Source: Tubiluchus corallicola | Taxonomy: Eukaryota > Priapulida > Priapulimorpha > Priapulimorphida > Tubiluchidae | NCBI GenBank assembly: GCA_030141605.1 | Contig: JAQGDQ010000075.1 | Coordinates: 561,501-625,500 of the forward strand | Length of the DNA stretch: 64,000 nt | Direction of reading: 5' to 3' | In this document: one piece after another, positions 27,501-63,117 of the stretch | Layout: every line of letters begins with the position of its first letter | Numbering within the stretch: the first letter of the stretch is position 1 | Position numbers and translations under genes: made by a program | The notes under the pieces: model-generated | Databases searched by the model: none | What the model was told of the DNA's origin: nothing | What the model saw: the letters and a program-made list of their open reading frames with translations, nothing else

Positions 27501-30500
27501 TAGGTTCGTAGATATACATTTACTATTTCATAATCAACTTAAGGTTTCGGACACTTTGGACTGTGCTAATAAGTTTTGTGTTGAAATTGCAGGTTTATCA
27601 TCAGCTATCTATTTCCTCTTTGACTTTACACATTAATAAATTTGAGATTTCTTATTTGTTTTAGTGATTTTCCTGGTAATGTGGAATTGTGTCAACTTGT
27701 TAATGAGAAGTTGATGGCATACAGGGCAGATGATCCTACAATGGGCGAGGTGAGTTACTAATTTTTTAGTTTCGCTAAGCAGAATATAAAATCTTGCTAG
27801 CATTGTCAGCATTAAGTTAAGGTCATTTTTTAGTTATTAGCCCTGTTATTCATGCAAATAAGCTAGGGACGTTGCCTTTCCTGTGTGTTTATGGATATTT
27901 GCAATACTCAACTGCCGATATTTGTTTACCCTTTGTGTTTTACTAGGTCGCAAGAGGTGTCAGGGGTTCAGCTGTTTTTATCACAATGTTTTGCAAGTGA
28001 GGAAAATACTTAAACAGTCATAATGTGTGCTTAGTGGCTAAAGTTAAGCAGTGTAGAGGCTGGTCAATTTAATTGATGGCTTCATACTTGCTCTGAGCAA
28101 TTTTGTTTGCTATGCTAATTGTGGCCGTTCACCTCATTGAGAGACAATGAATCCATCTAGCCAAATGTGGCTAAAACAAACCCTGCTGTTTGAGTATCTC
28201 ATCTTAGTAGAAGGAGCAGCTTCAAATTGCATGACAGCCATCTATAGAAAGCAAGAAGCGACGTAGAATGTTGGCTTTTGTTTGCCAAATTGTATTAAAC
28301 AATTATTGAGGGAAATTGTGAACTCTGAGAGTTATTTCCCCTGTTTAACTGTTTCATAAATTCCATAGTTAATGTACCTTTTCAAACAAACAATATTTTT
28401 TTCTAAAGCTGCAATAAGTTAATAACAGGTATGTCATACATTCGCGACATTAGCCTGTTTAAACACCCCCTGAGAGCTAATTTCATCTATTTTTGAACTG
28501 AATCTGTTGGCTAAACTGCTCTTGTGGTGTCAATTCCATAGCATTGTATTCATTGGGTATTAAATTGCACTTCATTAAGCTTTTGACATTGAATCTCAAT
28601 GACTAGCTTGGGTTGCATTTTACTGTATTGTATTTTTTCAGCTTAATTGGCACCTACTGTTCTGTTTATAATTATGCTATATATGTCGTGTCTATTGACT
28701 GTAATTTGCTGTCATTTTTTTCAATTTTACTAAAATGCTACCGCATTTTGTGCTAACGTCTTTATCTAATACTATTTACTAAAAAAGTTTAAAAAGGTTA
28801 AAGCTTCAAATGGGAATGATTGTGGCTATTTTAGGGTTTAGACAAAGCAAGATCTCAACTGATGATATTAGACAGAGGTATTGATGTTGTGTCGCCACTG
28901 CTTCACGAACTCACATTTCAGGCCATGGTGTATGATTTACTACAGATTGATAATGATGTGTATAGGTAACTATTTTTCTGGATATCTAAACAACTGACAG
29001 TGACAGTTGCAAAAAAGGTTTACAAATTTTGAAAAATAACTTTGAATATTGTTTAATTCTTTCAGTGATTTGATAATAAATTTCGTTGTTTCTGCATTAT
29101 CTTGAAAGATGATTGATGCACTTATTTGAAAGTCCAATAATTATTTCATTTGAGTATTTAGAATAAAACATTTTTTATTAATTTTATGAAATGGCTTTTT
29201 ATAAAATCTGTAATCTGGTTTGAATTTGAGAGCAGGCTTTCGAATGAATTTTAAAAGTCAGTTCGGTTTTGAAATTATTTTTTCTACATGTTGGGGTATG
29301 GTTGATTGTAATTTTTATTGATTGGTAGATGTGGGGATATGGTCGATTGTAATTTTTATTGATTGGTAGATATTCCACGTCACAGTCCGTAAAGCAAGGG
29401 GAGGAGATTCATGATAAGGAGGTACTGCTTGATGAAAACGATGACCTCTGGGCTTCCTTGCGCCACCAGCACATTGCCATCGTATCTCAGTATGTTAAAT
29501 GTTTTCTCTGTTTTTACTTTTAATAAACTTGATTAAATTTAATTAAATAAATTAAATATTACTTTTAATTACCTTCCGGCATTGGGCTAATAATCAATTG
29601 CATGAACGTTTTATATGCGGGGTTAATTGTGTGATTGCACGTGTTTTTTTTTCTTTTTTTAAAAAGTTTTTCCCTTTTTACACCATTTTCAAAAAGAAAA
29701 AAATCTATTCTATTATAATTTATAGATCAGTTACAAAACAACTGAAGAAATTTGCGGAAACTAAGCACATGATGCACCCTGGTGACAAACCTGCGAATAT
29801 GCGTGACTTGTCGCAGATGCTAAAAAAGATGCCCCAATATCAGAAAGAACTCAGCAAGTATTCCACACATCTCAATCTAGCGGAAGATTGCATGAAAACA
29901 TATCAGAAAGGAGTCGATAAGCTCTGCAAGGTTGAGCAGGTGTGTTGAATTTTCTTATAAGGCAGAATAAAATTACCATAAATCAAATTCGTAATGAGTC
30001 TAAAATGTCAGCAAGAAATATGTTTACATTATGGTGTTCTCAGTTTCTGAAAATTTTACAAATTTGGATTAAAAATTACCTTCCTACATGGTGAAGCTTT
30101 TTCCACAAATCACCCTAAACAAGACTGACTGACTACTCAAGACAAGAGGCTCTACTAAAAGGGTGAAGATAGGAATATCTGTCACGAGAAATAGACTATC
30201 TAGTTTGCTAATGACCGAATGTATCTGTTGATGTTCATCTCGAATTTAAGAAGATGTAGTCAGCTTAAATTTTAGAAGTATTTGTAATTGACAGGCCAGC
30301 TTAAATATAAAGTAGTCAACGAAATTAACTTTAGATCATCTTTAAGATTTCACATCTTATATGTATAATATGTTTTAAGTTATAATAAGATGATAGAACT
30401 CGTATTTTGTAAGAACTACGAAGCTTGTGGACATAGCAAACTTACTAAAGCAAACATTTTTCAGAGATTTAAAATTTTGCCACACGTATGGCAATTGTGG

Positions 30501-33500
30501 TCAGCAGAGTTTAGGCAAAATAAATAGTAATTCTTTATAATAATCATAGTTAGTAAAGAATTCCTCAAACCTATCCTGATATTATAACAGTGCAGTTATG
30601 ATGGTTATGCTTAAAATGTTTTCACTCCCCATTTTTTTATTTAAAATTGTGTATATGTTGACCTTCAAAGCCTGTAAAACTCTTATATGTTAAGTCCTCG
30701 CTTGATGATGCTAATGCATAAGGAAATGTGTCATTAAGCAAAATGTTGCTAAATGAAACAATGCTTTCCATAAAAAATAATGAAAAAGCATTCAGTTGCA
30801 TTTTAGAAGCAACAATCAATAATGCTTGGCTATGTAAAAGCATTCAGTTGCTTGCAGCTGAACAAAAATCTGTGAAGGGTGGCTATGTAAAAAACCTTCA
30901 ATTATGTTATAGGAGAAAAATCAATAACCCTTGACTCATTAATTAAACACTTTATAGGGATTATTACTTACAGTTTTATCAGCATCGTTTTCAATGTCGT
31001 TTTTGCCACAGCTAAAATGCTAATGAGGTGAACGCAGCAGTTAACTACGTAACATGAGATTATTTTATAATCCATAAAAATTTTGTGTAAACGTGGGAAA
31101 ACAATGATTCGTCATGGTCTGACTGCCTGCTTTCCACCATAATAACCATGTGGTGATCTGTGTTAAATGGTCAGCTTCATTCTTACAGTGCGTAGTAAAC
31201 AAAATTTTGTGCTTAAAGGTTAATGATCATTGTTAAAACGAAACATGCGGCATTAAGTGAAACAATGTAGCAAAAAATTAGCGTCTTTAAAAACGTAATG
31301 TCGCTTAGCAGGGTGTCGTTAAGCGAGGGCTTACTGAAGTATGTTGACTTCTAAACACAATGATAAAATACTAAAATAACTAAATATAGATAAGGAAGCT
31401 ATACTGTATTTTTCAATAAAAATGCACAATTGCCAATTTTGAGACTGCTCTGACTTGATTAAATTAGTAAATGAGAGTCCGGTTGATTTTAGTTTACTAA
31501 ATTTAAGTATAGATTCCATTGTGGTCTTGTGGAATTTATTTATGGAAATATCTAGTTTTTAAATCTGAACCAATATTATTTATCAGAAGTATAATTATGG
31601 ATGATTTCAATTCAAGTGTGTTGGTTTTTAATTTGGCGCTTATTATTATTTATTTTTCAGGATCTCGCTCTTGGTACTGGTCCTGATGGGGAGAGAATCA
31701 AGGATCATATGAAGAATATTGTCCCACGTCTTCTAGATGACAATGCTACCATTAACGACAAAATACGAATTATTCTTCTCTACATCTTGCACAAAAATGG
31801 TATTATAATCAGTTCTGTTATTTACTTTGCTGCCTGGCTTGTTGTGTGATTAGCTTGTTGGTTTGTGAGTTTGTTCTTTAGTTAGCTGGTTGGCAAATGA
31901 ATTTCTTATTTGTTTAGCTGGTTGAATAGCGAATTTTTGTTTGGTTAGCTGGCCAGTTAATGAATTTTCTATTTAATGAATTTGCTGATTGATTTGTGTC
32001 AGGTAATCATATAATTGATTTTATTTTATTAATTTAACATGTTCATAATTTAACCATTTTTATGTCAAAGAATTAACTGTGCAACCAGAACCCGTGCTTC
32101 CATGAGATATTTTGAAACTCTGTGAGAATGAATTTGCAGTACATAAACTTGGCTAGGTTAAATTTTATTTTTTTGTTAAACAACAACTGTTTTTTTAAAA
32201 TTAAATACCATATGTCCGGCATGGTGTGGCCCTGCACCATATTTTCTGTACCTGCAAGGTTAACAAACCAAAGCAATAATGTCTTCATAAATTTGCTAAT
32301 TGTTAACCTTGCTGAACAGATAATGCAAAAATAATCTTTTAAGAAATGCAACTTTTTACCTCTTTTTCCAATAAGTTATTGTCATTTGTCAAGTAAGAAC
32401 ATTTAATAATAATGTTTAAGTAATACTTTTTTCTGAAATTTAATTAATTAAATATTGATTTAACTTCATAAATAAGAAAATAATACAGTAGCAAGTCACC
32501 TAGTTTGATAAATTCATACTATAAGCCCAACTATTATATACCATAACTGTTATATACCGTACTAATTTAATTCCGTAGGCATTCATAGTTGAGCTGGTTA
32601 TTCATAATAAGAAAGACGGCGCAATATGTGTGGCATGAATGAATTTGTTTTTGGATTTAATTTAATTCATCAGAGATGTTTACAAAATTAAATCTCGTTC
32701 ATAATGTAATACAGCAGCACTGCTGGATATTAACTTAAAAGTAATTTTTGCAGGAATTACCGACGAAAACCTTTCCAAGCTTTGCCAGCATGCAAAGATT
32801 CCTGCTGCTGACAGAACTGCAATAACTAATCTGCAGCATCTAGGAATTCCTATCATATCAGATGTAAGTGTTTTGCTTGTTTGGAATCAAACTGTTTTTA
32901 CGATTCAAATTCTTCCTGCACTGTACTGTGCACTTTTTAGTAAATAAGCAAGAAAATTTCGTGTAGTTTTTGTTTGATGAGCACATTTATGTTCTTGTAG
33001 TTGGAGTGTACCTATTTTTTAACTTGGGTTATTAGAGTTTAGACTGCTGTGTTTAAGTTGGGTATTCAGCTTGAATTTTTTCAAGTGTTAGTGAAAAGTG
33101 ATGGTTACATACATACCATTACAATTTAAAAAGAGCGTTCGTCTTTCTTGAAATAACTATCTTCTTTTAAAGCATCATTGTGTCATTAAATTAGACCTGT
33201 TACTGATTCTCTCTTCCTTGCGTATGCATAAAATAAAAAGATTTCCTGAAAACCACCACTATCTGAAACTAAAGGCAGTTTCAAATTTTATTTCAACAGG
33301 ATTTTAAGTATTTTTCAGTACTTTAATTTTTTTCCTAAAAAAGCATATTTTATTTTGTAAGTTGAGATGATTTCTTCATTTGTAGGGACATATTATAGCA
33401 GTAAGAGTGTGACAGCTTCACACATGCATGTCAAATGTAAAGTCCTAAAAACAGTCATATTTGATTTCTGGGCTTGAATGTTGTCACTGATTCCCCAGGC

Positions 33501-36500
33501 ATAAAGTAAATGCTCAGTTTTAGAAAAAGTGTCTTTTTCAAAATCCAAATGTTGAAGTGGCATACTGAAAAGCTTTACATCTTTCTGAGTAGTGATTACA
33601 TTATTTATTGAAGTATTTAATTTTCTTACTAAGGTAGTTCATTTTTGTTCACTGTAAGTTGCACAATTGTTCATTTCATAATTTAGCTAAATTTATTATT
33701 ATTTTTGTCAATTTTTTTTCTTTTGTTATGTTTCTCTATGCAAAATGATATCAATTAAAATAATATTCGTATAGTGGAAGTATGATTTTTACTTTTAATC
33801 ATTTTTGACTTTTGCATACATTCGTGTACTCCAGATTAATTTACACTCAAATATTACAGCTTGAATTCACTTTTGTTTACAGGCAGCAAATCGCAAACGA
33901 CCTTGGGCACCACCAAGAAAAGATCGTGTAACTGAGCAAACGTATGCGCTTTCACGATGGACTCCTCTTATCAAGGACATCATGGAAGTAAATAATCAAA
34001 CAGCTTTAATACCTTTAGCAATAGAATGTTAGATTAAACAATTGACATTATGTTTAATGTGGTTGTTTGCTTCACCAGCACACACCACCTGAGCTTAAGT
34101 TGTAAAAAACATGATTGATGAATGCAGTCAATGCGCTTCTCTGACATGGCAATAAACTTTGCCTGCATTTAAAAGATTTCATAACAAAATAATTCATATT
34201 ATGATGCCATTAGAGTACTGTTTGCTCAGCAGTTGGAGGAAAGGTAACTTTTTGACAAGTGCCTTAGCTTTGTGTCCTCTTTTTATAACTCCTGCCATGC
34301 AAGTTTTTTGGAGAGCCTGCGTGAAGAAAGTGTAGTAAGTTCCAGTTAATAGACTCGCTTTGGGATATTTTGACCCAATTAATCAACTGATCCAATTAGC
34401 CGACGGGTGTAACATATTACTACTATAGGGGTATGAGTCATTGCTCATCACCTTAGTAGGCATTGCTGTAAATGGAATTAATGTGAAAATTCCTATATGC
34501 AATTATTATTTACTATTAACTTATATAATTGAATTAATAAAAAAAACAAAAAAATCACTCAAATCTGATTATTACTATTAAAAATACAAAAATTCATGCA
34601 AGGTCGGTTGCTTTATTTCTTCACTAAGAAGTCGGTTTCTGAAATTGAAAATCTGTTGCTGTGTGCTGTACATGTTCACACAAAACACCTAGTCACCTAG
34701 TGCTTGAGCTTCACCTTGTTTCCCTTGTGAAAAGCAGCGGGTGCTTCTAAAGCAAACCACTGGGCAAGTGATCAAATGTTTAGCTTCCAGAAACAATGAG
34801 GTTAACTAGGCTAGCGTAATAATGCATATGATGAACTTAGCTGCTTACAAACAAAGCTGTACTTAAACATAACTGTTTCTACATATATTATAGTGCACAA
34901 AAGTGAAATAAAGTTGACATAAAAGTAGTAAAAGCTCTTTGATCACGCACTAATGTCGTTAAGTATGTTAAGGAAGAATATTGAGTCAATTATGCAGAGT
35001 TATTTGAATCAATTACTGGTGTTTCTATATACATATGTATATATGCGGCCAGTAAAAGGCATTTTTGAGTCAATTAAGCGACTAATTATGTTAACTAGTG
35101 TAATAAATGGCACCTACTGTACCAAATTTTGAAAACAGAATTTATAAAATTGTATAAAACTGAGAATGAATAGGATATTCTTTGTTTTTGTGTCACGGTA
35201 TACATTTCTAATGACACCCTGTTTCAAATATTGGCAAAGTTGCATTCTTTCTTCTGAATGCAGTGTGTTTTTTCAAGTAGGAAAGATTAGCAAACTAACT
35301 GACTCTTTTTACAAAATGCAATGCAGCAAGAGCGATTATAATTGTGAGAATCATGACCTTACAATGATATTTGGGCCATTTAGAAAACCTGTTGTGACTA
35401 CTGTGATTAAATATTAGATCTCGCAATTTTTTAGGATGCAATTGCTGACAAGTTGGACAATGAACATTTTCCTTATCTTGCTGGAAGGGAGGCCACAGCA
35501 GGGTTTGCAACTTCTGCTGGCAGGTATGTCAAATGTTTTTCTGCTTTTTGAGACTGGCTGTTTCTCTTTATTAATGCCAATATTTGTTATTTATTAATAC
35601 TCATGAAATAACACCATGTAGCATGTTAATGACATTTTGGATAAAAATACCACAGCAAGCATTTTCCAAAACCCTGTCAAACAGAATTTTTCCAACAATG
35701 CGCTGGACTTTTCTAACTACTGTTTAACTTATTGCAAAAAATATATAAAGATATTATAAATTATTAGAAGCTATAAATAATTTATATTACTTTCCCCAAG
35801 TTAGATTTTTTTGTTTTTGCAAAGTTTGGGAAAAAATCACTCACTCTAAATGATCACTCTGTCTTAGGATTTACCTAATGAGATACATGTCAGAGGATCA
35901 ATTTCCGATAATTAGTTAGTTGCTGAAATAAAGAAAATTACAATTCGATTTTTACTGGTTGTAAACGTCTGTACTAGTAAGCTTTCTAGTTTTTGTAGGT
36001 AACGTTCATTTACTACAAATGTAGTATCAATTGTGTGCTGCACATAGCTTCCCACTCTTATTTGAGAATTCCTTTTAAAAGGCTGTTTTCAAAAGAAATT
36101 AAAATAGAAATTTTAATTTGATTATTGACATAATGTAGTGCTCGTTATGGTCGATGGCATAAAGATAAAGGTGGGCCAAACATTGTCACAGGACCACGAC
36201 TAATCATCTTTGTCATAGGAGGCATCACATTCTCAGAAATGCGGTCTGCATATGAAGTAACTCGTACTTCCAAACCCTGGGAAGTGCTGATTGGTGAGTA
36301 CACTAATGCATCTGAGGACATGTTTCATTTTTCTGTTATTTTTCTATTACTGCATAGTGCATATAATATTGATCTTTCTGCTCTTGGCTACATCTAACTA
36401 ACACAATGTTAGGATTTTGTTCATTTTGATTTACATTTTACACAAACAGTAAGGAAGCATCCCATATTCTTACTTTTACGAATGATGCCAAGATAAATTA

Positions 36501-41732: not shown

Positions 41733-42235
41733 CTGATGAGCATGATAATAAGCTTTTTGGATGGTCCAGTTTGCTATCGTTATTAATAAAAAGAAGAAAC
41801 GCTTGCATTTTATAACAAAATTTGCAATAAGACTATCAGTACTGTTTGCACGTTGTAAAGTTTTCCTTGTCTACTACTGTCTACGGGCTTATCTGTTGAA
41901 TACTGATCAACAGCATACGTTTTTATCATCTTAGTGCCCCTTTTCGGGATAGAGTGTGTTTGGCGGCGTTGAAATCTGGTGAATTTCCAAGCCATTCAAA
42001 TGAATAGAAAAAATTAATTCCAGAATTTTCAGAAAAAATTCAACTGTACACCTCAAGATTATAGGCTGTGCGAAACTTATTGGGGCTTCTGCACGAAATT
42101 TGAAGGTATGATAGAATCGTAATTAACTTAAGAGTAACTTAGATGTAATAAACAATTCTGTACTATTACTCGTTGTTTTACCACCACCACCGCCCGCCCA
42201 GCAAAAGGTTATGTACCACCCTGTACATAATACCA

Positions 42236-42645
42236 AAATCAGTTTATTTACATACTTCCACCTGTCACAGTAGTTTCACTGAAGTATACAAAATCACAAA
42301 ATCCTGTACAACATAAACTATTCAGCTTTTGTCGACGTACTAACACAAGCCGTGCATTTCACGTATTCTTTTGTGAATAACTACTGTTTACTTATCTGTA
42401 ACATATCATTATTTTCCACAGAAAAGGCATTTCCTGATGCAAACATCTGTCTGTTTGTTTTTCTATAATGAAGAAGTTCAGTTTGTGATTTTTTTCATAT
42501 CAAATTCAAAACTCCGCAAGCCAAGATCCAGCATCCAGCTGACAGAGCTGTTTGTTGCAGTGTTGGTAGCCGAATGGTCTTTTGGGTTTGCTTCGTGTGA
42601 ATTGCTCGATGGGTTCAACACTCGCTCAGAACTATTCATAGCGTT
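42236..42645 (+). pseudogene. Broken duplicate of DNA ligase III exon 12 with flanking introns
   Basis: This block aligns with 57396-57885 in the ligase III gene. Shared: TCAGTTTATTTACATACTT (copy) against TTCAGTTTAATTACGTACTT (source); an acceptor-like ACAG; exon start AAAGGCATTTCCTGATGCAAA against AAAGCATTTCATGATGCAAA, giving KAF-x-DAN-x-CLFVF; and beyond it GACAGAGCTGTTTG and the intron after it. The copy lacks the middle (second half of the exon, the donor and about 70 bp of intron), jumping from TTTGTTTTT to TATAATGAAGAAGTTCAG. Because introns are included it arose by DNA duplication, not by retrotransposition. It cannot encode a working exon. Confidence 0.85.
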
Positions 42646-47070: not shown

Positions 47071-48237
47071 TAACAAAATGTAATAACAACTTAAATTATG
47101 ATGCAAACTAAAAAATATTTTAAATTAAACATCACAGTATTATGATAAATATCACTTTACAACATCACAATAATGTATTTATGATTTTTTCACAATAAGC
47201 AAATGAAACTTCAAACAAACAAACATTCATTTAACCAAAAATTGGTGATAAATATGTGAAACATGTCTACAACTTTATAACAGTAATTAATAATAACAAT
47301 ACACTCATATCTCAGTTTGCCGGACAAAAGCGGAGAGTCTTTGGTCCGAATTACTGATTGTTTGTATTTACGGATACTAATCTATAGGTGCCAGATATTA
47401 GACTCACTGTAATGTAGAATCAATCGCCTAATTGTCTCAAAAATGTCTAGTGAGAGCTGCTCCTATGTAAAGTATATAAACTGTTGGCAGTTGACTCAAA
47501 TAACTCTGCGTAATTAAATTTTTATTTTTACATGTAGAGATATACTTATGGTTACACTGATATTATGATGTAAACAAATCAATGGCCCGCCAAGTGGCAG
47601 TCAGCTCATGAAACAACAGACTGTGTCCATAGTATGCAACTTTGTCTGATTCTTCCAATATCCGTAAAAGCGCGGTCCGGCAAACGTATATAAGTGTACA
47701 GAAGAAATGGACTAAAAAAGTTGTAAGGTACTTCAGTAATCTGAGATACTACAAATAAACAATGTACAATACAGTATAGCTGCCACACAGTATATTGAAT
47801 TTTCATTACCTGGATTTTTATCATAATTACAGGTTGCCTGCACTGTAGCCCATTTCAAGAAAGCACATATTTGTTTCTATCATTGTAAATTGGAAGATTA
47901 CCTGGGAACCATTGTAAATTTGCTGCTATAATAAGCTAAGTTTGAGTATCCATTTCTAAACATGTGTAACCACCTATGCTGGTTCGTGCTAATACCACCT
48001 TTGCACAGAAGTCTAAAGTTGTATGTTTACTGCATATTTATTACATTTAAATCTTTACCAGGCTATTTACAACTGTGCTAATATGAAAACCAACAAGTTG
48101 GTGCAATAAATTGTCAATTAGCAGAATACTAAATAAAAGCCTGATTTAACTTCTCACTAAACTTATAATTCTTTTCAGGAAACTCGTGTTCTAAATTATA
48201 GGATTTGTGGCACTGTATTCTACACATTAAATACATC
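47071..48237. other. Upstream region of DNA ligase III
   Basis: AT-rich, no gene or classified repeat seen. It should contain the ligase III promoter and 5'UTR. No TATA or initiator can be assigned with confidence. Confidence 0.5.
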
Positions 48238-48248
48238 ATGGTGTAATG
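48238..48248 (+). promoter_or_regulatory. Three-codon uORF whose stop overlaps the upstream ligase III AUG
   Basis: ATG GTG TAA at 48238-48246 shares its last A with the ATG at 48246-48248, forming a TAATG overlap. If this region is in the mature mRNA, ribosomes ending the uORF sit exactly on the upstream start, a layout that permits reinitiation or dampens use of that start. That the transcript begins upstream of 48238 is inferred. Confidence 0.4.
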
Positions 48249-48386
48249 CGTAGTTGTTTTAAACCACTATTGTCAGCAATCTATTTGGCATCTGCAACAC
48301 AATTATTTATTAACACTTATTGTGCAAACAGACTGCTCTGTTTCAAATCCCATCATTGCCTCTGGTTGCACACAAGCAGCAGTATA
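48246..48386 (+). other. LIG3: Putative mitochondrial targeting presequence of ligase III
   Basis: Forty-seven codons in frame with the inner Met begin [14 protein letters not shown] and contain Arg, Lys and His but no Asp or Glu, with many Ser/Ala/Leu, as matrix-targeting sequences do. In vertebrate LIG3 the mitochondrial form also starts at an upstream AUG in frame with the nuclear start just before the zinc finger. No AUG in any frame lies between the two starts. The upstream ATG has G at -3 and C at +4; the inner one has A at -3 and G at +4, which suits leaky scanning. Confidence 0.65.
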
Positions 48387-51300
48387 ATGGCTGACAACAG
48401 GTACTGTGTTGATTACGCTAAACGTGGGATGGCTGGATGTAAGAAATGCAAGCAGAAAATTGAAAAAGGACTGCCGAGAATTGCCAAAATTGTCAACAAT
48501 CCATTTACGGAGGAAGGCGGTGACATGAAACATTGGCATCACATTCCTTGTATATTTGAAACATTTGCTAAAGCTAGAGCCACCACCAAAGTCATTGAAG
48601 ATCCTGATGATTTGGAAGGATGGGATCAACTTCAACAAGAGGAAAAGGATTTAATACTAAAGTTAATTAAAGGTTAGTTAATAATTGTTATTTTTTATTA
48701 TTACTACTAGTTTGCAAATTCAGTCTTATACATCAGCAAACTGGCATCCTACTGATAGATAAACTTGATCTGGAGATCAGTTAGTCTAGTTGAATCTAGT
48801 TTCACTTGAGATGTACAACTCTAAAATAGATTTTCAGATAAGCCGAAACCTTGCTGTTATGTAATTCCTCTACAGATAAACAATATTTAGAGCAAACTTT
48901 ATATAATTGCTGTTCAATTAAATAGATTTCATTGCATTTTTGTTTATGTTGTGACAATTTAATTTTCTAAATATTTAGTAATTAACTTTTGCAGAGTTGG
49001 CAGAGCAACGTGAAAAGAAAGGTTCTTCCCCAAAGAAAAAGGCCTCAAAGCAGCAGATACAGATGACTTTGACAAGTCCGAATAAGCAGACAAACAATGA
49101 TAAAAATGGTTTGTAGCAAGCTATTGAAACTAACTAGAAAAATTACTGTTTCTCAAATCAAATTTAGTTTAACTATGCATTGGCTCTTCTGGTATTTTAT
49201 AAAACAAAAATTGTAGACGGAATCATGGATGTTATAATAAAAAGATAAGCCTTTTCGCAGTTTTGTTGTGCGCATGCTCAGTTGCTGCATTTTAAAGGTT
49301 AAGTGTACCACAGCAGTGCATCTTAACTACAACCGTCACATGACGTGTGGATAAAGCAAAGCCGTCTGCTGTATCAATTCAGTAACTTCACTTGTTTTAC
49401 ATGGTTTTTACTTAATTATGCATTAATCCTCATTATGCAGAGTGATTTACTAGCAGGATCTTGCTTGGGAACTAGAAAAATGAACTAGATAAGGTTCTAG
49501 CTACCTGTTAAAACTTTTACTGTTATAATAGCTTGTGCTGTGAGGCGTTTTCAAGTGTACACAAATGTGTTGTCTGGTACACGTAAGTTTTGACCTTTCC
49601 ACATTCATCGTCAATCAATGGAACTGTGGGAACTGTTTATTATATTTTTATTATAATGTCTATGGTTCCGTCTATAATCTTGTTCTGGTGTTTGTGTGGC
49701 TAGTTATAATTGAGGCAGTTTATTTATTATGTTGACATTATCTTAGATGCAAGTGTGAAATCTGTAGCTGCAGGGTTGTCGCATGTTGTGGCTGGAATTC
49801 TAGATCATAAAGACAACAGTTTTCGAGAATATCGTCGCCTTTGTGCTAAAATAGCTGAGGAGCCTAGTTATAACAGCAAAACTGCCATAGTTTCCAATTA
49901 CATTAATAAAGGAAATGATGGTGGTATGTTTTTTTTTGTATTAATTTGTAGGCTGTAATGGAAAATTTCAGTTACTATGTATTCTCAAATAGAAGATAAG
50001 AATGATCGTGCTTTAAATATGAAATATGACTTTGCTAAGTGAAAGATGTTTGAGCTATTCTTAAAATCCACAAATTACATTTATTATATTTTAGAATTAT
50101 TGTTATTTTGCAAATTGAAATGTGTGCTTCTTAAATGTGCAGATGGTTTCAAAGGTGATACATATTTATTGCTGAAGTTGTTACTTCCTGGAGCAGTCAA
50201 ACGAGTTTACAATTTGCAAAACAAGCAGCTAGTTAAACATTTCAGTCAGGTATTGAATATTACAATGTCTACCACTTTCGTTTTAGAATAATACAATGGT
50301 TAATGTTTACGCAAATGTATAATGGAACTATAGTAATGGTATAGTGATGTCGTGCTCAATTATAATGTGTGCTAAGCATATATACCTTAGTAAAATACCT
50401 AATTTCTAAATGCAAAATTCTTTAAAATTTAATTGTAGTTTCCGTTATTCATTTTGGCAATATATTAACAACAAAACTTACATCCGAATACTAATTAGAA
50501 CTGTGTTAAACTTCACATTTGCCAACTGGAAACTTGACTTTTTCAGTTATTCAACTAAACTTACCTGGTTCAGGGCCTTTTTAATATGTGTGAACTGATC
50601 TTAAATTTTCAGTAAAATGCTGAACAAAGCACATAAGTTTTGTAGAAATGCATATTTGAATCTAATGCACCTTTTGCGAAATACAAACAAAAAAATTATA
50701 ATTGAAGCAGAGTATTAAGTTCATACCATTTTTACCAACAGAATTATTAAATGATATCTTATTAAACAACATTTTATTAGGCAAATTAGAATAATACACT
50801 AAGTCCCATGAAGAATACTTAAGTACACACAGAACTGACACATGGCACCATAGCACAATGAAGTGTATCTGTATAAATATGAGAAATAGTGCACTTGTTA
50901 TACTGTTAAATTGACTGAATAGAATTGTTCAAAGTGTTCATGCTAGCAGTTGACCATTGAATGGTTTGCTGCTGTTCCAAATGACTATCTTGTTGCACTT
51001 TTGTAACTGGTAACATTGATTTAATTCCAGCTTTTTGGCACTAATCTCAATGATATGGTGACCGATTTAGAAAAGGTAATTTATCTCTTTTGTATTTGTA
51101 CATTTATTTTCGTGGTATTTTGCTGCGAAATGTCCCTCATTGTTCTAAATTTTTGCCAGATATGCTACTGTAATATGTTTAATTGCAAAAACGTTTGAGC
51201 CTATTTTAGTTTTTAAACATTTCTTGTGTTATTTTGAATTGGTATTCATTCTAATGCTTTTCTATGCATGCAATGTACGTTGGAATAAATCCATTTTTAG

Positions 51301-54300
51301 TCATTTTTCATTCATATTGTTTGACTTGGATATGTGTTTTTAATAAAAGCGTATTCACACATTTTTTTTGAGTATGCATTGCAAGCAATGAGAAATAGAT
51401 GCTAAACATTTGCAATGTAACCACATATAATCTGTTTAGTTTTATATAATGTATAAGTAAGATAACATTTTGCTGTTTAGTGCCATTTATGTATTTTTTC
51501 TGTTATTTGATACTAAGCAATGTATCTGTTACATATAAATGTCACTTTGATGCTGTTTTTTCAGGGTGATGTAGCTGAAACTGTGAGAATGTTTTTTGAA
51601 GAAAGTTTAACTTCAGTAAAACCAAGATCGAAAAGTGAACTTACACTTGCAGAGGTAATTAGTATTTCTTAACGAAAGCCGGCAAAAAAGTCTTTGTTTG
51701 CATTTTAAAATATAATTGCACCTGCATGATTTAAATATGTTCTGGTTTTGAAAAATCAGCTCATAACAAAACAATATTTATTCTGTTGATTTTTTGACAA
51801 AATTACTTTTCAATAATTTGTCATCTTGTAATAATCGTAAATCTTATCATGTTTGGAAAAAGTGGGCATATATCAGTTCACCCATGCATTTGTACTATTA
51901 CCAGAATGTCAGACTTATTGATATTACAGGTTGACGAATTCCTGAATGAGTTGGCTTTGCAAACTAAAGAAGATGATCAACAGAGAGTCTTGAAAAAGCT
52001 TGCGGACAAGTAATTCTACTATGTAGTTGCTAACACATTATTAAATACCGTATTTTCCCGTGTATAAGAGACCCTTTTTTGCTCAGAATTTTCACTTTAA
52101 AAATAGGGGGTCTCTTATACATGGGAGTAAGTCTTTTCAATAAGATGCATAACGACACTGATGATTTTAAAGAAATAAGTGCTCTACAACTGTTTTATTT
52201 CGAATAATTATAGTTTCCTTTCAATAAATCTTCTCCTTGGCTAAATTCTAATGATAAAATTAATGTACCGGGTAAGTTATTATTTTTTTAAATGTCTCTT
52301 TGGTATTGGAGAGAAATCGATTGTTCTGCAGCCAATCAACGCATCTGCATAAGCTCTCTGCTTAATTTAATGATTTCTATGATGAATAAAGTTATTCATT
52401 ACCAAAAAACTTTTTTCCAGAATTTTTGCCTAAAAATTGAAGGGGTCTCTTATACACAAGGGTCTCTTATACATGGGAAAATACGGTAATTGCTTTCTTT
52501 TGAGTATTTTTCTTACACTTTTATCACGTTTATTTCCATCTTTGAAAAATGGTCATGAAAATCATTAGATGAATATAACCTGCCTGATTTATAGTACACA
52601 CAAGCAAAGCTGGTTTAGACCAAAGCAATTTTGTGTATGCATTACAACAAAGGGCCAAGTTCTATACCATACATACTCTTTAAAAGGTAAAAACCACTTT
52701 TTACATTGCAAAAAACCTTGTCCAGATCATATTTTGTATTTTGTTGTTTTTGATATCTTAGCTAGGACAGGACAAGAACCATATTTTAACAAAGACCAAG
52801 TTCGAGTCTGTAGGCAAGCTCAGATTCAGTCTGTACTGGATTTACCTGTGTAAACTGTGTGTTTTTTATTGATGAGTGTTTATGATTTGTCAAATTATCC
52901 CACAATCCTGGGATTAGGTTTTCTAAGCTTTGTGGTACAGGTGTCAGCTAAGAATGAACCCTTTGTTTTATATCTGAAATGCCTAATTATTTTAGCAAAA
53001 GTTTGTGGTATGTGAAGTGCTTTTTTTATTTTTCATTTTATTGTATTTTAGTTGATGGTAGTCTATTCATAATTTGCATTTCAGAAGCACAGGAAATGAT
53101 TTAAAAATGGCAGTGCGGTTAATCAAACATGACATACGAATCAATGCTGGACCAAAACACGTGTATGTTTTCTAGTTTCTTTAAAACTGCATTTAATTAA
53201 TCTGATTATTCTAAGTAAAATATAATTACCACATTACGAACTTATACATATGTGTAGCTCTACTTATTTTGTTAATGGTGTTTTATTTAATACAGCAAAC
53301 TTTGTAATATGAAAGAATCGTTTAATTACCTGTTAGTGTGACAGGTTAATTATTTATAAATTTTATTTTATTATTTCCTGGAATATTTTTAATTATTATA
53401 CTGACTGACAGAGAAAAACCTAAAAACTGCCTAGGAACTGACACGGTGTCGTCTGGCCCTGGTTAGTCCAACCCAGTTTCAAAGGCATTGGTTTCAATTT
53501 CTGCTTTGGGAAATCTGAATTTGTTTATGTGAGTCTAATGATTGTAATTATTTCTAACTGCAATAATAGTAAAAAGAATTGCTTAATATGTGATAAACAT
53601 TTTCGTATTGTAATTGCCAGGCAGATCAATTTCTTCCAATGCTTCTCCTTAAGAGTACTCTGCATGTCTTTTTCTTATACCTTTCACCCTTTCTCGCACT
53701 ATAATGACAGTCATTTACTTATTTGTAACTCTTATTCACTAATATTTTAAAAATAGATAACCCTAATGTAGTTAATATTTGGTGTTAATAGCATATATAA
53801 CTTTTCAGTTTCTTGTTTCTATTTCAGTCTTGATGGATTAGATTCAAATGCCTATCAAGCATTCCAGGCTTCCAGAGATTTGAATGATGTGGTCAGCCGA
53901 GTGCTGGCGAATCGTAAGGAAGCAGTCAACAAGCCTGGAATGGCAAAGAGCATTAGTGTTCGAGCGTCTCTTCTGACCCCCGTTTTGCCTATGTTGGTAT
54001 GCACTGTACGCAAGTAATAGCATCCACTACTGTACCTTACTGGCTGTAATACTCATTGTCATTAATATAATGGCAAGATGTTCCTTCATGGTAGCAATAG
54101 CTGCAAAACCGTGATTCATTTTTCATAGTTTCCAACTCTGCACCAAGAATGGTTATCTGCCATTGAAAGTTTGCATGCTAATCAATTCTGAAAAACTTGG
54201 TTTACAAAGTGAGATAAAATAATCTGTTTTGTTCACCTAGTATGTGTTATCATAAAAGCTTTGGGCTACTGTGAATAAACAAAGCTATAAAAATGTTACT

Positions 54301-57300
54301 ATACGTAGTTTAATTGTTGGAAGTGCATGTTTCTTAACAGATTTTTCTTCTGGCTATAACAACATTTGATGAGACTGTAATTAAAAATTCCCTTTTCAAT
54401 GTTTTCTGCAGATTCTAGTGCTGCTGCCATCATTTGGAGATATTTAAGATGATACATTGTTTAAATTTCTATGTATTTTAATATCTTGCAGGCAGAGGCT
54501 TGTAAGTCTGTGGATTATGCATTGAAAAAATGCCCGAATGGAATGTATTCAGAAATTAAATACGATGGAGAACGGGTGCAAGTACACAAACAGGGAGACA
54601 AATTCCACTATTTCAGTCGAAGCCTCAAACCTGTACTAGGCCATAAGGTAAGAAGGTTTGTTGGTCAATATGGTCAATTCTGCCCTGTGCAAATACTGCC
54701 TTTGTGGTCCTATTGCATAAGACGCACTGTAGATAATATATTTTACCGGAGTATTACTGGAGCATAGTTAAACTAAAACTCTACAAAGATATACATGCCC
54801 TAGTTGATAACGTCAACCTGTTATTATAATAAACAAATACTAAGGTTGATAAATAACTGTTCCATACTTCTCATTGTAACTGGTTACTGATTTCTGGCTG
54901 TTAATTAGTAAATGTAATGATCTTATGCCAAAAATTAAGAAAACATAGTCGGTTTTTATTCCGAAATTAAGTATGACTTCTTACAAAGGATATTTGGATA
55001 TTATAATGCTGATGAGTGTACTATTGACAACTTATTGATGATCAAGGTAAGTTATGGTTATGCTTTTATTTGTGTTTGCCTTATTCAAGCCAAAAATATT
55101 TAAAGAAGTGGCTTGTTATCCTTCTTTTCAATGGAAAGGTTAGTTTCTAAACTTTTAAACATGATTGACTGTAATTTGGAAATTTTTAAACTAACATGGA
55201 CTCTTTAATGCTAGGACAGGTTTAGAAAACTTTTGAATTGACATTTCACTGAGACACAGAGCACAACAGTCAGTTAATTACATATCTCTACCATTTTACA
55301 ACTTCTGTCAAATAGTGTGTGTCTTGCTACAAACTTTTCTTAGGCGCACTGCACTATGGAAAATTTTGAAATATTCATTTTTGTAAAAACCCTAGCAGAA
55401 AAATTGATTTATATTTAACCTGTGAATTTTTTTCATTATCCTGTTGAATAATCGAGTTTTTTTCTCAAATGTTTTTTATTCATAGTCAAAGCTTGAGTTT
55501 AGCCTACAATCCTAAAATAGTTCTTACTGTTCAGCATGTAGTTTATGGTCCACTCAATGCCCATGCTTACCCATCTGGGAAGCTGCCTAAAATGGTGTTA
55601 ATGTTAGTCTACTATTCTTAATTTCAGGTCCAGCACTTTAAGGATTACATTCCACAAGCTTTTCCACACGGGAATGATTTAATTTTAGATAGTGAAGTTT
55701 TACTTATTGATACCAGTACAGGAAAACCATTGCCATTTGGTACTTTAGGAGTGCATAAGGTATGTTTTCTTTTTCTAATTTTGAAAATAATAGATTTTAC
55801 GCAAAAAACTATACCATTATATTTCGTTTTGTTTTATCTTTTTTTAATTTACATGGCACATTTACTAATTTGACTTTCTAGCATTTTTGAAAGATATTCC
55901 AGTTTAATAATTTTTGATGATCCATTTTTCTGAGTTGTATAATCTGTGTTTACGCTTCTTTGATGATTGTTTTGTTCATTTATTTTGACCAATGATGTGA
56001 GCTAAAGTATTAAATATGTACACTGAAAAAAAGCACAATCTTTTCTTTTTTAACAAGCTATTACATGAGCCATCCACTTGCCTTTGTAAGGAAAGTAACT
56101 AACTTCTAAAGCAATAAATGTAAGACATGCATGCAAAGCTAAATTTTATTTTGATTCACAATTGTTTCACCCACAAAATGTGGTCCTCTTCAGCTATTAC
56201 AGCCACATTACATTGGAAATTCCTTTTCAGAAGATAGACAAGCTAAAACAAGGATGATTTATCAAATCTTCTAAGACTAGCACAACAATTACATGGTCTT
56301 GAAAAATTACTAATTATAACTTACTAATAAACAGGGCTTAGCCAGAGAGTCCAGCCTCCCACCCCCCTTGAAAATCTGCAGTTCTGATAAGTTGCAGAAA
56401 TAATGAGATAAATTGATAAAATAAAAAAGTACAGTAGTTGCTGCTTAGTAGACTCACGGTTAATAGACTCAAGTGAGCATGTGCAGAACATCTCAGGTTT
56501 CTTTGTGTCAGTATAGTATTAATGTCAAAATGTATAAGAACTATAGTTACATAAGTCTTTCCAGCAGGTATGTGAAATGCTAAGTAATATAGATTTGCAT
56601 GGAAAGTTTTTTGGGGCATAATTTAACATTGTCTTTTCTTCCCCTGATTTACATGGCGAAGTGATGTCATGTAATGCGAATGCGATATGTGCATAAAATT
56701 GCTGTAAAGTAGTATAATTTTTTAAGATTATATTTCTGAAACCTACTTCAGGTGCCTCTTTTCTTGTCCTTTAGTGCATTTCACAGTTAATTCAAATCGT
56801 CTAATGTACAGTAACTTTGACAGCAACACCAAACTGTTACAAATATTACAATGATTTTGAATTGCTAATTATCATCTTACATGGGGTGCTGTGTTTTCAT
56901 GGAAAATTCAATTGTCATGTGTTTTGCTTTATCACTTCGACAGAGTCAACTCTTTTTCAGTACACTTAATCAAAGTGCTGCCTGGGGCACAAAACCCCTT
57001 CTGCCCCCTGGAATCAACAATTTTTATGTGCAAAAATCGCTGAAATGTTCACTATTTTTCAGCCTGATGATACAAATAACAATTATTACCTTTATACTTT
57101 ATCTTGATGTGTAAGTTATGGAAATCAATAGTGCACAAAGAGAATTATTATAGTCCAGACAATTATTGACAAATTACGTAACACATCAAATTTGTGCCCT
57201 GCAAAAATTTCGCTTACTGTTGTATTATGCAACAAGCTTGCTAAACGTTTCCTGTTGCTACCACTGTTGTTGGATAATATTGTTCTGTATATTTGCAGAT

Positions 57301-60300
57301 ACATACCTCTCACATTGTATTAATTACTTGTAAAGGTTTCAGGCATCATCAGCAGCATGTGTTGCTGTCTGTTTGATATTATTTCATGAAAGTACATACT
57401 ATTAAATTCAGTTTAATTACGTACTTTCACCTATCACAACGGTTTGACAGAAGTATGCGTAAATAGTCTACAATAAAACATACATTCTGCTTATGCCCAT
57501 GTTCTAACACAAACTGTATGCTTCATGTACAAATAAGCTTTTATGAATAATCACTATTAGGTTAGACTACAATAAATCTTTTTTTCAGAAAAAAGCATTT
57601 CATGATGCAAATGTATGTCTGTTTGTTTTTGACTGTCTTCACTTTAATGGACAAAATTTGATGGAAGTGTAAGTATTTTACTGTAAGCTGTAAAGACCTG
57701 TGTGATAACTGCCTTTGCCAATATTTAATGAAGAGGTTCAGTATGCATTTTTTTCATATAAAGTCAACATTTTGCAAGCTAGGTCGTGCATTGAGCTGAC
57801 AGAGCTGTTTGCGACAGTGTTCCTAGCCAAGTGATCATTGTGTATGCTTCAAAGGATTCAATACTTACTCTGGCAATTCGGTGAACACACACTGATTCTG
57901 GCCATTTACCAATAGAGAGATGATGAACACGCATCTGAATGTGACTAAAGCACCTGTGCCATTTGAGTGGTTATCTTGATCACGTTGAATAGGTCCTGCT
58001 GTGAATGCTGGATTCTGACTTCTAGTGGACTGAAGTGCACAAAACGAATAATGTAGATAGTTATAATTAAGCTATAATAATTCTCACAAATCAAGACACT
58101 GAATCAGCAGGGGTGTATTAGGTGTGTGAGAAGTATATTCATCCTTTCCCTCAAGTCACCATCTTGCCAGGCATGGCATTTCAACCAAGCACATACTATG
58201 TTCAGTACAATATAGCAATGATGACAATAGCTTATTGTCTTCCATGAAGTGTGTGATTTCAGAATCACAGTGTTTTAAGGCAATCGAATGCTTGAAGATA
58301 GTTAGCACATTACCGACATCGCTTTGCTTTGTGGAAAAGGTGACAACGAGTTATTGTCCATGATGCATGGATTTGAAATCATTTAATTTTAACTAACAAA
58401 ATACAGGCATTTGTTCTTCCTTACATTTTAGTGATAGCTGTTGTATTATATCTAATTAACTACTTCCTTCCTTTTGTTATTTGAAGTTGAATTTCTTCAT
58501 ACAATTCGAAAGCCAGTGTCCGGCATTCAACAGCGGGTCCTACTCATATTAGTTAATCGTAGCGAGACCAGAATGCGACTCGTTATCAAAGCTATACCTC
58601 TAAAATGGGCCACTGCATTGGCAGTTGTGTCTCAGCCATGTCCTGATGTGTGTATATCCTGCCTGTATGAGGTAAGCAACTCAGATCCACGTAGGGAATG
58701 AAACAGCCCAAAATGAGAATTGAAGCTATTCGTATCAACTCCCTAACAAACCTTAGTGCCATCTTAACTTCGCTAACTAGGATAACGATGGTATCATTGG
58801 GCTACACATCTCACTGCAGTAGAAACTTTTATATAATCTAGCAGTTCTTTATTGAATTCAGGCAATTTTAATTTTAAGGCAGACATTAGCCATGCGTTTT
58901 ATTATAGTTACTTGTTGCTTTATTTGCTGTTGAATTCTGTACCCTTGATTTGCAATTGTCAGTGAACATGCATAAGTTTGTCTAATTTTAGCTACGTATA
59001 ACTGAGAAAGCCATTTTTCAGGCCGCTAAAGGAGCGCCGGAAGTTCTTACATGAAAACATGAATGAAGTTCCAAATAGGATTATGTTTTCTGAGATGAAA
59101 TTCATAAATGTGAGTATTATTTGAACCGTTGTCTGTATAGTTTGTTGCATTTATTAGATGTGTAAATTTTTCTCTGTGAAGACAAATAGTTACAACTATT
59201 TAATTCATTCTACTTGCTTTAAGAAGTTGTATAATGACACTTGAATCGATTTTAAAGCGTTGGTTGAACATTTTACAATCCTATGATAGTGTTTTCACTG
59301 CTGTTTATCTATTATAAGCCATCTCATTCTTATTTAAGAAGCTGCTTGTATGTTTAGTGAAACTGTATTGATTCTCTGGCTTCTCTGCATAGCAGCACAG
59401 CTTAATTGGTACCATAGAAGAACTTCGAAACTAACAAGAATAATTGGTTTAGATTTAAGAGAGATTAGCATGCTTAGAGAGAGATTACTAGATCCGCTAC
59501 TAGATTAGCATGCTTAGAGAGAGATTACTAGATCCGCTACTAGATTACTAGACACTAGACAATTACTAGACAAAGAGTGTGACAAACAATGGCTGCCATG
59601 TTCATCTACATACAAAAACTACATTTGACTGTTAAGCAAACAGAGCTCTTAAGTGACAAACTTTTAAAGTATTAATTGAGCACTTAAGCCCATTGTCTGG
59701 TCCAGTTGAATCAATATTCTTTTTATTTTGCAGTTATTTTTACTAGGTTTCTTTGTGCTACTTTTTTAAGAAAAATGATTTTTGTAGTGCGGGCCAACCA
59801 GTCAAGGTCAGTGACTATCCCACTAAAATTTGCATTGTACATTGTCCAAGCTTAGTTTTTGAGCTCTTCACAACTTTTGAGTTGTAATTGACCTTTATTC
59901 CACTAATACCTAGTATAACACATTGTGTAAGCCACTGTGGCCAATTTTCTCAATGAATTCTATACCCCGATTAGGTACTACAGGTTACCTTTTGGTTGCC
60001 CTCTGTCAAATAAATTTTTAGTAATGTATTTTAACCTAGTCTTATGGTTTTGTGACTGACTTACCACCTTACCTGTGTGAGTGCTTCGTACCAGCTTTCA
60101 CAGCTCCGTCATGGGCATAGGAACATTATTCGTTTTATTTTATTCTTGCAGTTTTGTTAGTGCTTCTCTGCCTGTTTTTAAACAAGCATTTATGTTTGCT
60201 GACTCATATGGTTAAGGTCTAAGACTTGACCTTTGACCTTTAAATGCCAGGCATCAATACAAAAAAATACCGTCTTTGAAGTAGCTGCTTTGTCAGTTTT

Positions 60301-61471
60301 GGTGAACTAATTTGACTATCAGTTAGTTATTTAATTCAAAAGCTTAAATAAACCATTACCTGCCTATCTTAGCCTTTTAACCTAAAGCCACTGCCCACCT
60401 ACTATAGCAGCACATGGGCAACTTTCTTGTGTGACTATTTTGTAGAATTAAAATTGAGGCCTGCTTGAGCCCCACTGAGTGAGCTGAGACAACCAATTTA
60501 AATAAGTAAATTTATGCCTCATAAATGGGTCATCCGTATATATAACGATATCAAATTTAAGATAGGTAGGTGGCAGGAGACGCAATAACGTCATTATAAC
60601 GCAAGGTAGGTAGGTGATTTAGTCATTCATATGTGAGTGCGAGCAGCAGATAACACTACGAGGGTGCAGCCATTTTGCGCTGATCCCAGCAGGCTGCCAT
60701 TTTTTGTCAATTTCTTGTTTCGTAGTCTTGGTTCACTGTGTTTCTTTGTGATAAACTTCCTCAATCGCAAGCTCAGCTAAAAAATGTGCTATAACTTTCC
60801 CCAGATACATACCATTTGTGAATTTGCACACTGCCTAGTACAAAAGCTACATCGGTGTGATATCGATAACAATATAAGGGGTAGGTACGTGTTGGGGCAT
60901 ATAATAATGCCATAATAATGCAAGTTAGGAAAAGTCTTTGAAATCAGTTGAAAACTTGATATCGTTATAAGTGGGGGGGGGGGGGGGGGCTTAAATCCTT
61001 ACAATTTTGCGACATTTCAAAACTGTCATTTTTCTGTTTCGTCCTTATCGTGCCTTAACCACACATTCCAAAGCCTTTGGAACAGGTAATAATATTTCAT
61101 GTAATCATTCAGTACAAGTTGACCTTATGCACGTGCCATATTGACGATATGCATTAAAAGTGCTCATTTATGTGTCTGCAACATAGCTGAATGCTTATCA
61201 TCACTCCTAACCAAAGAGGGGTTTTCATTATCTTCTTGAGACCATTTGTGCAAAAGTTTAATGAGAAATACATGACATTCTATTGTCTATCTAATGCTCT
61301 TCTTGTCTTATCATTGTAGAAATTCTCTGACTTGAAGGACATGATGGTTCGTGTTATCAGAGAAGGACTGGAAGGACTTGTGTTGAAGGATGTTAATGTA
61401 AGTAAATTATCATTAGTTTGTTTGTCTCTTTGTTTGCGAATTCCAAATACTGCTAAATTATTATTATTATT

Positions 61472-61518
<47 letters not shown>

Positions 61519-63117
61519 TATTATTATTTAACACATGCCATCACAATTTAATTCGATTAAAGATTATTATGTTTTTAGTTAAATCTAGTGTAGATAAAAT
61601 TATTGTTTTGTTTTGCTTTATTTTGTTTAGGGTATATATGAACCAGGGAAAAGGCACTGGTTGAAAATGAAGAAGGATTATTTAAATGAAGGAGTAATGG
61701 CTGATACTGCAGACCTAGTTGTGCTGGGTGCGTACTATGGTACCGGAAACAAAGGTAGGCATGTTTCTGTACATGACATCTTTAATGAGCCCTAAAATGT
61801 TTGAAAGTGCTGTAGGCATGTGTATGTGTGATGTAATTTTTCCTTGACGTCACATCTATCTTGATCTTGAGTTTAGCAACATTTCTCAATTCTGTACAAT
61901 GCACAAACAAGCTAGTTAGTTTGAACACTGGGCGATTTGAAGAAATATAATAATGGTAAGAAAGATGTGCTTTCAGAAATATAAATATCTCCATGGCGTT
62001 TTTTCATTAGAACTATGGCTGAGGTGAAAAACATTAGAAATCCAGAGAAAACTAAAGTACTCAGCGATATCACATAATTATCTAAACTCACCAGAATAAG
62101 TATCTATTCCTTACATTAGGAGTTTGGTATGGTTTTTTTCAGCAACAGCTTATTCACGCTTCTTTCCATTCTTGCATGAGCTTTTAACTTAATTTTGGCA
62201 AACAGTATAACTTTCATAATTTCAAATGGTTTTATTTAACAACTATTGCTTGAATAACCTGTTTTTCTCACATATTGTTTCTAACAAGTTATATAACATT
62301 TAAAGATGTTGCTTGTTTTGCTTTGACAGAAAATTATTGTGTACAAAAGACCATAGAATTTACATTCTGTTTAAACGTACTATGAAAATGATCCCACATG
62401 GTTTGAAAAGACTGCCCTGACATTCCAGAGCTCTCTGAGCATTACATTATAATCCACTTTGGTTAAAGCAAACTTCTTAACTGGTAAGAATGTAATTGGC
62501 TGATTATTGACACCTATTATAAATTCGATACAAAAATGATTACCATGATTATAGTGGGAACTATAGTTTTAATAATAATTTTGTTGCAATATTGTATTGA
62601 TAAACAAATATTAAACCTGACAATGATAGCTTTTACATTCTGAAGCAAACAGTTTCTCTCTTTCAAAATAATCTAGAAATAAATTCCCAATTTCTGCTCA
62701 AATTGCTAAAATCTGCCATTCAATGTTGGATTGATTAAAATCAGCTGATATGCATAAATAACATGTGCTTGCGACAAACATATTTATGAATTTAGGTGAA
62801 TGCTTTACTGTCCTTTGGTAAGGATGAATATGATGTAGTTGCGAGAATAAATGTAATATTTATTTTCAGATATAGTGTCTATAAACTGTAAAAAACATGC
62901 ATGTATGCAACAGTCTTGTGTTCTGTGTCTGGCTTAGCTACTGCTGTCATATTGTCATTTCCTGAAACTTTTAGGTGGGCTCATGTCTGTCTTTTTAATG
63001 GGTGTTTATGACCAGCAGACAGGAAAATGGTGTACGGTTACCAAATGCGGCAACGGACACGATGACAAAACAATTGAGCTTCTGAACAAAACATTACCCA
63101 TGACCAAGATCAGTAAA
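48246..63117 (+). CDS. LIG3: DNA ligase III (partial; 3' exons off window), probable dual mitochondrial/nuclear starts
   Basis: Exons: 48246-48672, 48995-49108, 49747-49923, 50143-50249, 51031-51075, 51565-51654, 51930-52009, 53085-53162, 53828-53996, 54492-54647, 55628-55759, 57589-57668, 59022-59109, 61320-61397, 61631-61754, 62975-63117; all phases agree. Numbered from the inner Met (48387): PARP-like zinc finger at 1-90 with C18, C21, H52, C55 ligands (GCKKC...HHIPC); a Lys-rich linker ([11 protein letters not shown]); DNA-binding domain ([32 protein letters not shown]); nucleotidyltransferase core with catalytic K405 in [32 protein letters not shown] (K557) and motif V WLKMKK (K572/K574); then the OB-fold start ([12 protein letters not shown]). 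The enzyme seals nicks in base-excision and single-strand break repair with XRCC1 and maintains mitochondrial DNA. 649 codons are visible; OB-fold end and any BRCT domain are missing. Confidence 0.96.
52048..52486. mobile_element. MITE (439 bp) with long inverted repeats, TA-flanked
   Basis: The left end is CCGTATTTTCCCGTGTATAA and the reverse complement of the right end is CCGTATTTTCCCATGTATAA, one mismatch, both continuing into GAGACCCTT. TA lies on each side (52046-52047, 52487-52488). A second TATAAGAGACCC copy follows the first at each end, so the inverted repeat is itself partly duplicated. There is no transposase. It lies in ligase III intron 7. Similar TATAAGA-type ends are common in animal genomes; I do not name a family. 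Confidence 0.88.
59463..59542 (+). repeat. Perfect 40-bp tandem duplication
   Basis: Two identical 40-bp units starting GATTAGCATGCTTAGAGAGA and ending CCGCTACTA, followed by further TTACTAGA/CACTAGACA repeats. Its perfection points to recent origin. It lies in ligase III intron 13. Confidence 0.95.
59560..61319. other. Ligase III intron 13, repeat-bearing but without exons
   Basis: Contains a loose direct repeat (GATATCAAATTTAAGATAGGTAGG near 60548, GATATCGATAACAATATAAGGGGTAGG near 60862), both followed by AATAATG/ATAACG and GCAAGnTAGG, and a poly-G run. No coding sequence is seen. Confidence 0.55.
60973..60989. repeat. Poly-G run of 17
   Basis: Seventeen consecutive G residues on the plus strand, the coding strand of ligase III, so the pre-mRNA carries the G-run. 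Its exact length may be uncertain through sequencing error. Confidence 0.9.
61456..61529. repeat. (ATT)n(ATC)n(ATT)n compound microsatellite
   Basis: A trinucleotide array starting about 60 bp after ligase III exon 14. The poly-Ser and poly-Asp frames over it are artefacts. Confidence 0.95.

Follow-up and report, generated by a model that had tools for sequence, protein, structure and literature searches.

Start-site choice in LIG3 and in related systems

In vertebrates, a single LIG3 mRNA is reported to carry two in-frame AUGs, the upstream one giving a mitochondrial form with a leader of about 80 residues and the downstream one a nuclear form. According to a review, the first ATG of vertebrate Lig3 takes ~10% of initiation, and many LIG3 homologues likely encode a targeting sequence (PMC4488670). 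Reports on zebrafish Lig3 (PMC11811205) and on a Lig3 M88T construct (PMC3107202) agree with this plan. Targeting from two AUGs has also been proposed for Arabidopsis ligase 1 (PMC3457046), and for ELAC2, leaky scanning that depends on start context is described as the source of a nuclear and a mitochondrial form (PMC3084753).

Upstream open reading frames (uORFs) add a further layer. In the C/EBP mRNAs, short uORFs are reported to stop 7 and 4 nt ahead of the long-form AUG, and their translation moves ribosomes beyond that AUG to the AUG of a short form (PMC11109482, PMC3045505). Coupled termination-reinitiation at UAAUG, as in influenza B, is said to need TURBS. Where the uORF is short, some distance is generally required by the post-termination 40S, and in the case of SLAMF1 the 1-nt overlap is stated to “likely preclude” ordinary short-uORF reinitiation at the overlapping AUG (PMC5972666). 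We found no description of a uORF in LIG3 in the literature as represented by the openings of abstracts, a body of text that includes a minority of subscription journals, so that this is not proof of absence. The main text of a study of LIG3 in HEK cells (PMC12526102) is silent on the start codon, translation, M88, and initiation, and two papers on alternative starts (PMC12718117 and PMC13219423) do not mention LIG3.

The DNA considered here (“the window”) is the whole 64-kb stretch that was analyzed, from the priapulid Tubiluchus corallicola. The genes recognized in it are as follows:

48387..48672, + strand: zf-PARP coding part of the first recognized LIG3 exon (PF00645, E = 2.6e-23), with a GT donor after it
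48995..63117, + strand: further LIG3 exons; the gene exits at the window end
21712-36295, + strand: STXBP1-like gene (Sec1 family) upstream of LIG3, in 13 tblastn pieces (human protein as query)
783-1172 and 10009-10401, − strand: transferrin-family exons near the window start (Pfam-type match)

Judged by its sequence matches, the ligase gene is a real LIG3. With the protein read from base 48246 as query, the human LIG3 zinc-finger chain 1UW0 (DNA ligase III) is matched at E = 1.2e-37, whereas the best PARP1 chain is weaker (E = 1.7e-19), and the ligase catalytic domain is recognized at 54492-54647 (PF01068, DNA_ligase_A_M, E = 6.4e-16). Three probes from human LIG3 match in order and at near full length, apart from the first 16 residues of one probe. 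The exons are 48%–82% identical to the probe pieces, and the catalytic exons 62%–82% identical to the human catalytic piece. The exon edges inspected, a set that does not include the 51562 and 53062 exons, agree with GT and AG, and the GT donor after 48672 ranks 24th of 7200 GTs under a splice model that had this donor in its training set. The alpha form of LIG3 carries a C-terminal BRCT domain; in the present gene, exons are covered to at least 63117, and the window ends ahead of any BRCT domain.

Layout of the start region

The region ahead of the zinc finger contains three overlapping or adjoining elements:

48238..48246, + strand: uORF ATG-GTG-TAA (Met-Val-stop), start context A-3/G+4
48246..48386, + strand: candidate N-terminal extension of 47 codons in the zinc-finger frame, start context G-3/C+4
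48387..48389, + strand: ATG equivalent to the human LIG3 nuclear-form start (from the 1UW0 alignment), context A-3/G+4

The letters ATG-GTG-TAATG and the sharing of a base between stop and AUG, on which the original prediction was built, are borne out on re-reading the sequence: base 48246 is common to the uORF stop TAA (48244-48246) and the ATG at 48246-48248. The “3-codon uORF” it described is present as a short uORF, but one with two sense codons, the third being the stop. The frame, which taken from stop to stop begins at 48231 and has its first ATG at 48246, does continue through 47 basic, acid-free codons (two arginines, two lysines, three histidines, and no aspartate or glutamate) into the zinc-finger methionine, 141 nt downstream, and no further ATG occurs between 48246 and 48387 in any frame, as had been claimed. 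Methionine 48 of the protein started at 48246 (base 48387) aligns with residue 1 of 1UW0, in agreement with the earlier view of this AUG as the counterpart of the nuclear start. Its context is strong (A-3/G+4) and that of 48246 weaker (G-3/C+4), also as stated before; this rise in context from the first AUG to the second suits leaky scanning. A point absent from the original prediction is that the uORF's own start is strong as well.

The upstream in-frame start thus matches what is described for vertebrate LIG3, on which the original prediction had drawn. The differences are that the candidate leader is shorter (47 codons vs. about 80 residues), that it has no detectable similarity to the human leader (88 of 500 shuffles score as well), and that a uORF overlapping as UAAUG lies just upstream here. 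The use of a poor first AUG is shared with ELAC2, whose first AUG, however, lacks both A-3 and G+4 and reportedly never has a purine at −3 in mammals; since the first LIG3 AUG has G-3, it is just moderately weak by comparison. The passages on ELAC2 mention no uORF, whereas one is present here. The layout of C/EBPalpha and C/EBPbeta (a short uORF at the long-form AUG and a further in-frame AUG downstream that gives the short form) is found here too, with a 1-nt overlap in place of gaps of 7 and 4 nt; the products there are forms of transcription factors. Arabidopsis DNA ligase 1 resembles this locus in that two in-frame AUGs were proposed for mitochondrial and nuclear ligase forms, but it is LIG1 and not LIG3. 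Influenza B segment 7 has the same overlapping stop-start word, UAAUG, but preceded by a long upstream ORF with TURBS, in contrast to a two-codon uORF without UGGGA.

We give about an even chance to the reading that this is a LIG3 gene with two in-frame starts, a new case of the known plan; the arrangement is probably an ordinary variation on that plan. Most ribosomes would then begin at 48387 and make the nuclear form, and a minority would begin at 48246 and make a form longer by 47 residues, probably mitochondrial. A role for the uORF presumes an mRNA that includes 48238. On such an mRNA, ribosomes translating the strong two-codon uORF would end on top of the 48246 AUG, mostly unable to reuse it, and would scan on, with the option of reinitiating 141 nt further at 48387. 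Given a uORF with a strong start and a short-form AUG at a distance of 141 nt, the expected effect is that the uORF would reduce the long form and supply the short one, as in C/EBPalpha and C/EBPbeta. By this analogy, the uORF is a possible brake on the long form. Against this step, ribosomes have been reported to reinitiate to some extent at the nearby p42 AUG of C/EBPalpha. DENR-MCT-1-dependent reinitiation as described in Drosophila acts on short uORFs whose start context is strong, a description that would suit the present one, but in human cells it is reported on start-stop uORFs only, which the present uORF is not. It is also reported to be independent of distance, and this leaves some room for restart at the overlapping 48246 AUG.

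That the two-codon uORF is a conserved switch that partitions the ligase between mitochondria and nucleus in answer to translation state (DENR-MCTS1, mTOR, eIF2) strikes us as decidedly improbable; it would amount to a C/EBP-type switch applied to the organelle partition of a repair enzyme. If the extension does work as a leader outside vertebrates, the two-start LIG3 plan would be ancient, and LIG3 may serve mitochondrial ligation in animals generally, wherever the gene is retained. Should the uORF also set the ratio of the forms, the supply of ligase to mitochondria and nucleus would be coupled to translation state. The present value of the model is a directional prediction: More long form is expected on loss of the uORF ATG, and also less short form, provided that the latter is supplied by reinitiation at 48387.

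Chance, composition, and competing explanations

How unusual is the open frame? An in-frame, ATG-opened extension of at least 47 codons was found at 46 of 2582 control ATGs (ATGs outside 13 LIG3 exons, with the LIG3 exons at 51562 and 53062 and STXBP1 kept in). With the STXBP1 pieces also removed, the count is 46 of 2533, from 28 distinct upstream starts, and in a second-order Markov simulation it is 599 of 60,000. An open frame of this length is therefore unusual at about the 1%–2% level, before allowing for the fact that it was singled out from a 64-kb window. Extensions of at least 47 codons that are also acid-free are rarer (3/2582 control ATGs and 30/60,000 simulated), and those that in addition have no inner ATG are rarer still (1/2582, in a repetitive tract at 11043, and 1/60,000), although these joint figures are post hoc. 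Elsewhere in the window there are 159 open 47-codon ATG stretches (many of them mutually overlapping, and possibly including transferrin and STXBP1 exons), of which 22 lack acids, 14 of these having in addition a net charge of at least +4. Overlap of an ATG with the stop of an ATG-opened ORF (xxATG) occurs at 109 of the 2640 ATGs of the window; 62 of these close ORFs of at most 10 codons and 17 close ORFs of at most two codons (48246 included). Neither the acid-free basic composition nor the UAAUG overlap is therefore more than mildly unusual by itself.

Measured against what is expected of a targeting sequence, the extension is basic and acid-free but of low amphipathicity, and it does no better than controls. 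Its maximum hydrophobic moment over 18 residues is 0.33, a value reached by 117 of the 159 control stretches and exceeded by four presequences, the human LIG3 leader included (0.56–0.75). Over 11 residues the moment is 0.63, vs. 0.70–1.02 in presequences. The most hydrophobic 19 residues have a mean of 1.32, vs. 0.08–0.29 in the four presequences, and because of this excess the extension may instead be a secretory-type signal.

Codon usage was scored against 23 exons (977 codons), a set without the LIG3 pieces at 53830, 59022, 61633, and 62976 and the STXBP1 piece at 35426 (stop in the alignment). The whole-codon score of the extension, −0.35 per codon, is lower than that of all 23 exons and of 89% of 134 control stretches, which may themselves contain transferrin exons. 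This score separates exons from controls and goes against the extension being coding. It should be noted that the low value arises partly because the extension is without acids, and acid avoidance in any leader would bias the score. The amino-acid score is also low (−0.31, vs. −0.16 to +0.18 in four known leaders). For synonymous codon choice, the extension is equaled or exceeded by 42% of controls, and 35% of exons score as low; the measure hardly parts exons from controls in this genome, and thus cannot settle coding status. Overall, the composition of the extension looks non-coding. Its position and the vertebrate precedent would favor a mitochondrial leader; the extension's own sequence is no help.

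The main rival to the two-start model is that the frame ahead of 48387 is ordinary 5′ UTR, open by accident and functionless, a reading we hold to be possible but somewhat unlikely. In that case, 48387 would be the sole ligase start in the exon, and a mitochondrial form, if any, would have its source in a different first exon, a different promoter, or a different ligase. The non-coding-like composition speaks for it, as do targeting traits that are no better than those of random open stretches, both in charge and in moment; the 1%–2% chance of openness, for a finding picked from 64 kb, can be set on the same side. That chance is nevertheless low in both the control and simulated counts, and the open frame sits at the very position of the vertebrate LIG3 leader, with no AUG between the two starts. 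The two-start model, for its part, has to accommodate the low amphipathicity, the non-coding-like codon and amino-acid scores, and the lack of similarity to the human leader.

Two forms could also arise by alternative transcription, with some transcripts starting upstream of 48246 and some within 48246-48387. There is precedent for this in yeast CCA1, the TRNT1 homologue (PMC12718117), and very short 5′ UTRs are reported to favor downstream starts as well (PMC13219423), yet we regard it as unlikely at this locus. Most improbable of all, in our view, is the mechanism of the original prediction, in which uORF ribosomes would restart at 48246 through the UAAUG and so raise the long form. Stop-start coupling does occur in influenza B segment 7 (UAAUG), in caliciviruses (overlaps of 1–14 nt), in the bornavirus X/P mRNA (UGAUG), and, as known via citing text, in SART1, and the preference of DENR-MCT-1 for short uORFs in strong context, whatever the distance, could be cited in its favor. 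However, neither UGGGA, the TURBS core, nor GGGA is found in 48140-48246; the 1-nt overlap of SLAMF1, a like case, is considered likely to preclude typical reinitiation (PMC5972666); such overlaps are not rare by chance, as counted above; and the C/EBP precedents point in the other direction, so that the overlap as a device for reinitiation at the upstream AUG is not supported.

Splice sites, RNA features, and surrounding sequence

Two candidate 3′ splice sites upstream of the start region bear on which transcript is made:

47831..47832, + strand: strongest candidate 3′ splice site of 47800-48400 (score 10.3, rank 23 of 7055 AGs)
48177..48178, + strand: AG that is a weak candidate for a 3′ splice site (score 3.3, rank 536 of 7055) and would place 48179-48672 in one exon

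The acceptor model was made from 12 sites of this one gene, which score −0.4 to 12.3 when left out; three of the 12 then fall below the AG at 48177..48178. An exon from 47833, if used, would put four more upstream ATGs (47962, 47976, 48023, and 48083) in the 5′ UTR ahead of 48246, and this counts against the simple two-start model. Within 48246-48387 the best acceptor scores −1.9 (rank 2235 of 7055), which makes it unlikely that a 5′ UTR intron ends there. Removal of the upstream AUG by such an intron, which the original prediction had itself raised as one of the cases that would overturn it, is accordingly not supported under the 12-site model.

RNA structure was considered as a means of pausing ribosomes at the weaker AUG and rejected: The fold of 48179-48420 has a z-score of −0.08 and is equaled or bettered by 89 of 200 shuffles. 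Searches for structured RNAs returned no Rfam match at the gathering score and no tRNAs. The zinc-finger exon, used as a query against contig collections of viruses and prokaryotes, gave 17 and 48 pattern matches, none confirmed; given the organisms that make up these collections, the absence of matches says nothing on conservation.

Several features of the surrounding sequence were recorded in passing. A long open stretch at 12740-13522 looks by eye like a retrotransposon endonuclease, and no Pfam family matches it at E 0.01. The STXBP1 piece at 35426-35527 has a stop near its start, probably owing to intron sequence in the alignment. Just upstream of LIG3, and possibly in its promoter region, lies a MITE-like element (47303-47697) with imperfect inverted ends, whose 23-nt arms contain GTCCGGCAAAC and are 78% complementary; at 34988-35116 the other strand carries a 70% relative of the inner part (47385-47515). 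Farther upstream of LIG3, on the same strand, 42223-42594 is a decayed partial copy of a LIG3 intron/exon/intron, matching 57392-57630 at 69.6% and 57726-57850 at 77.5%, with the exon remnant EKAFPDANICLFVF.
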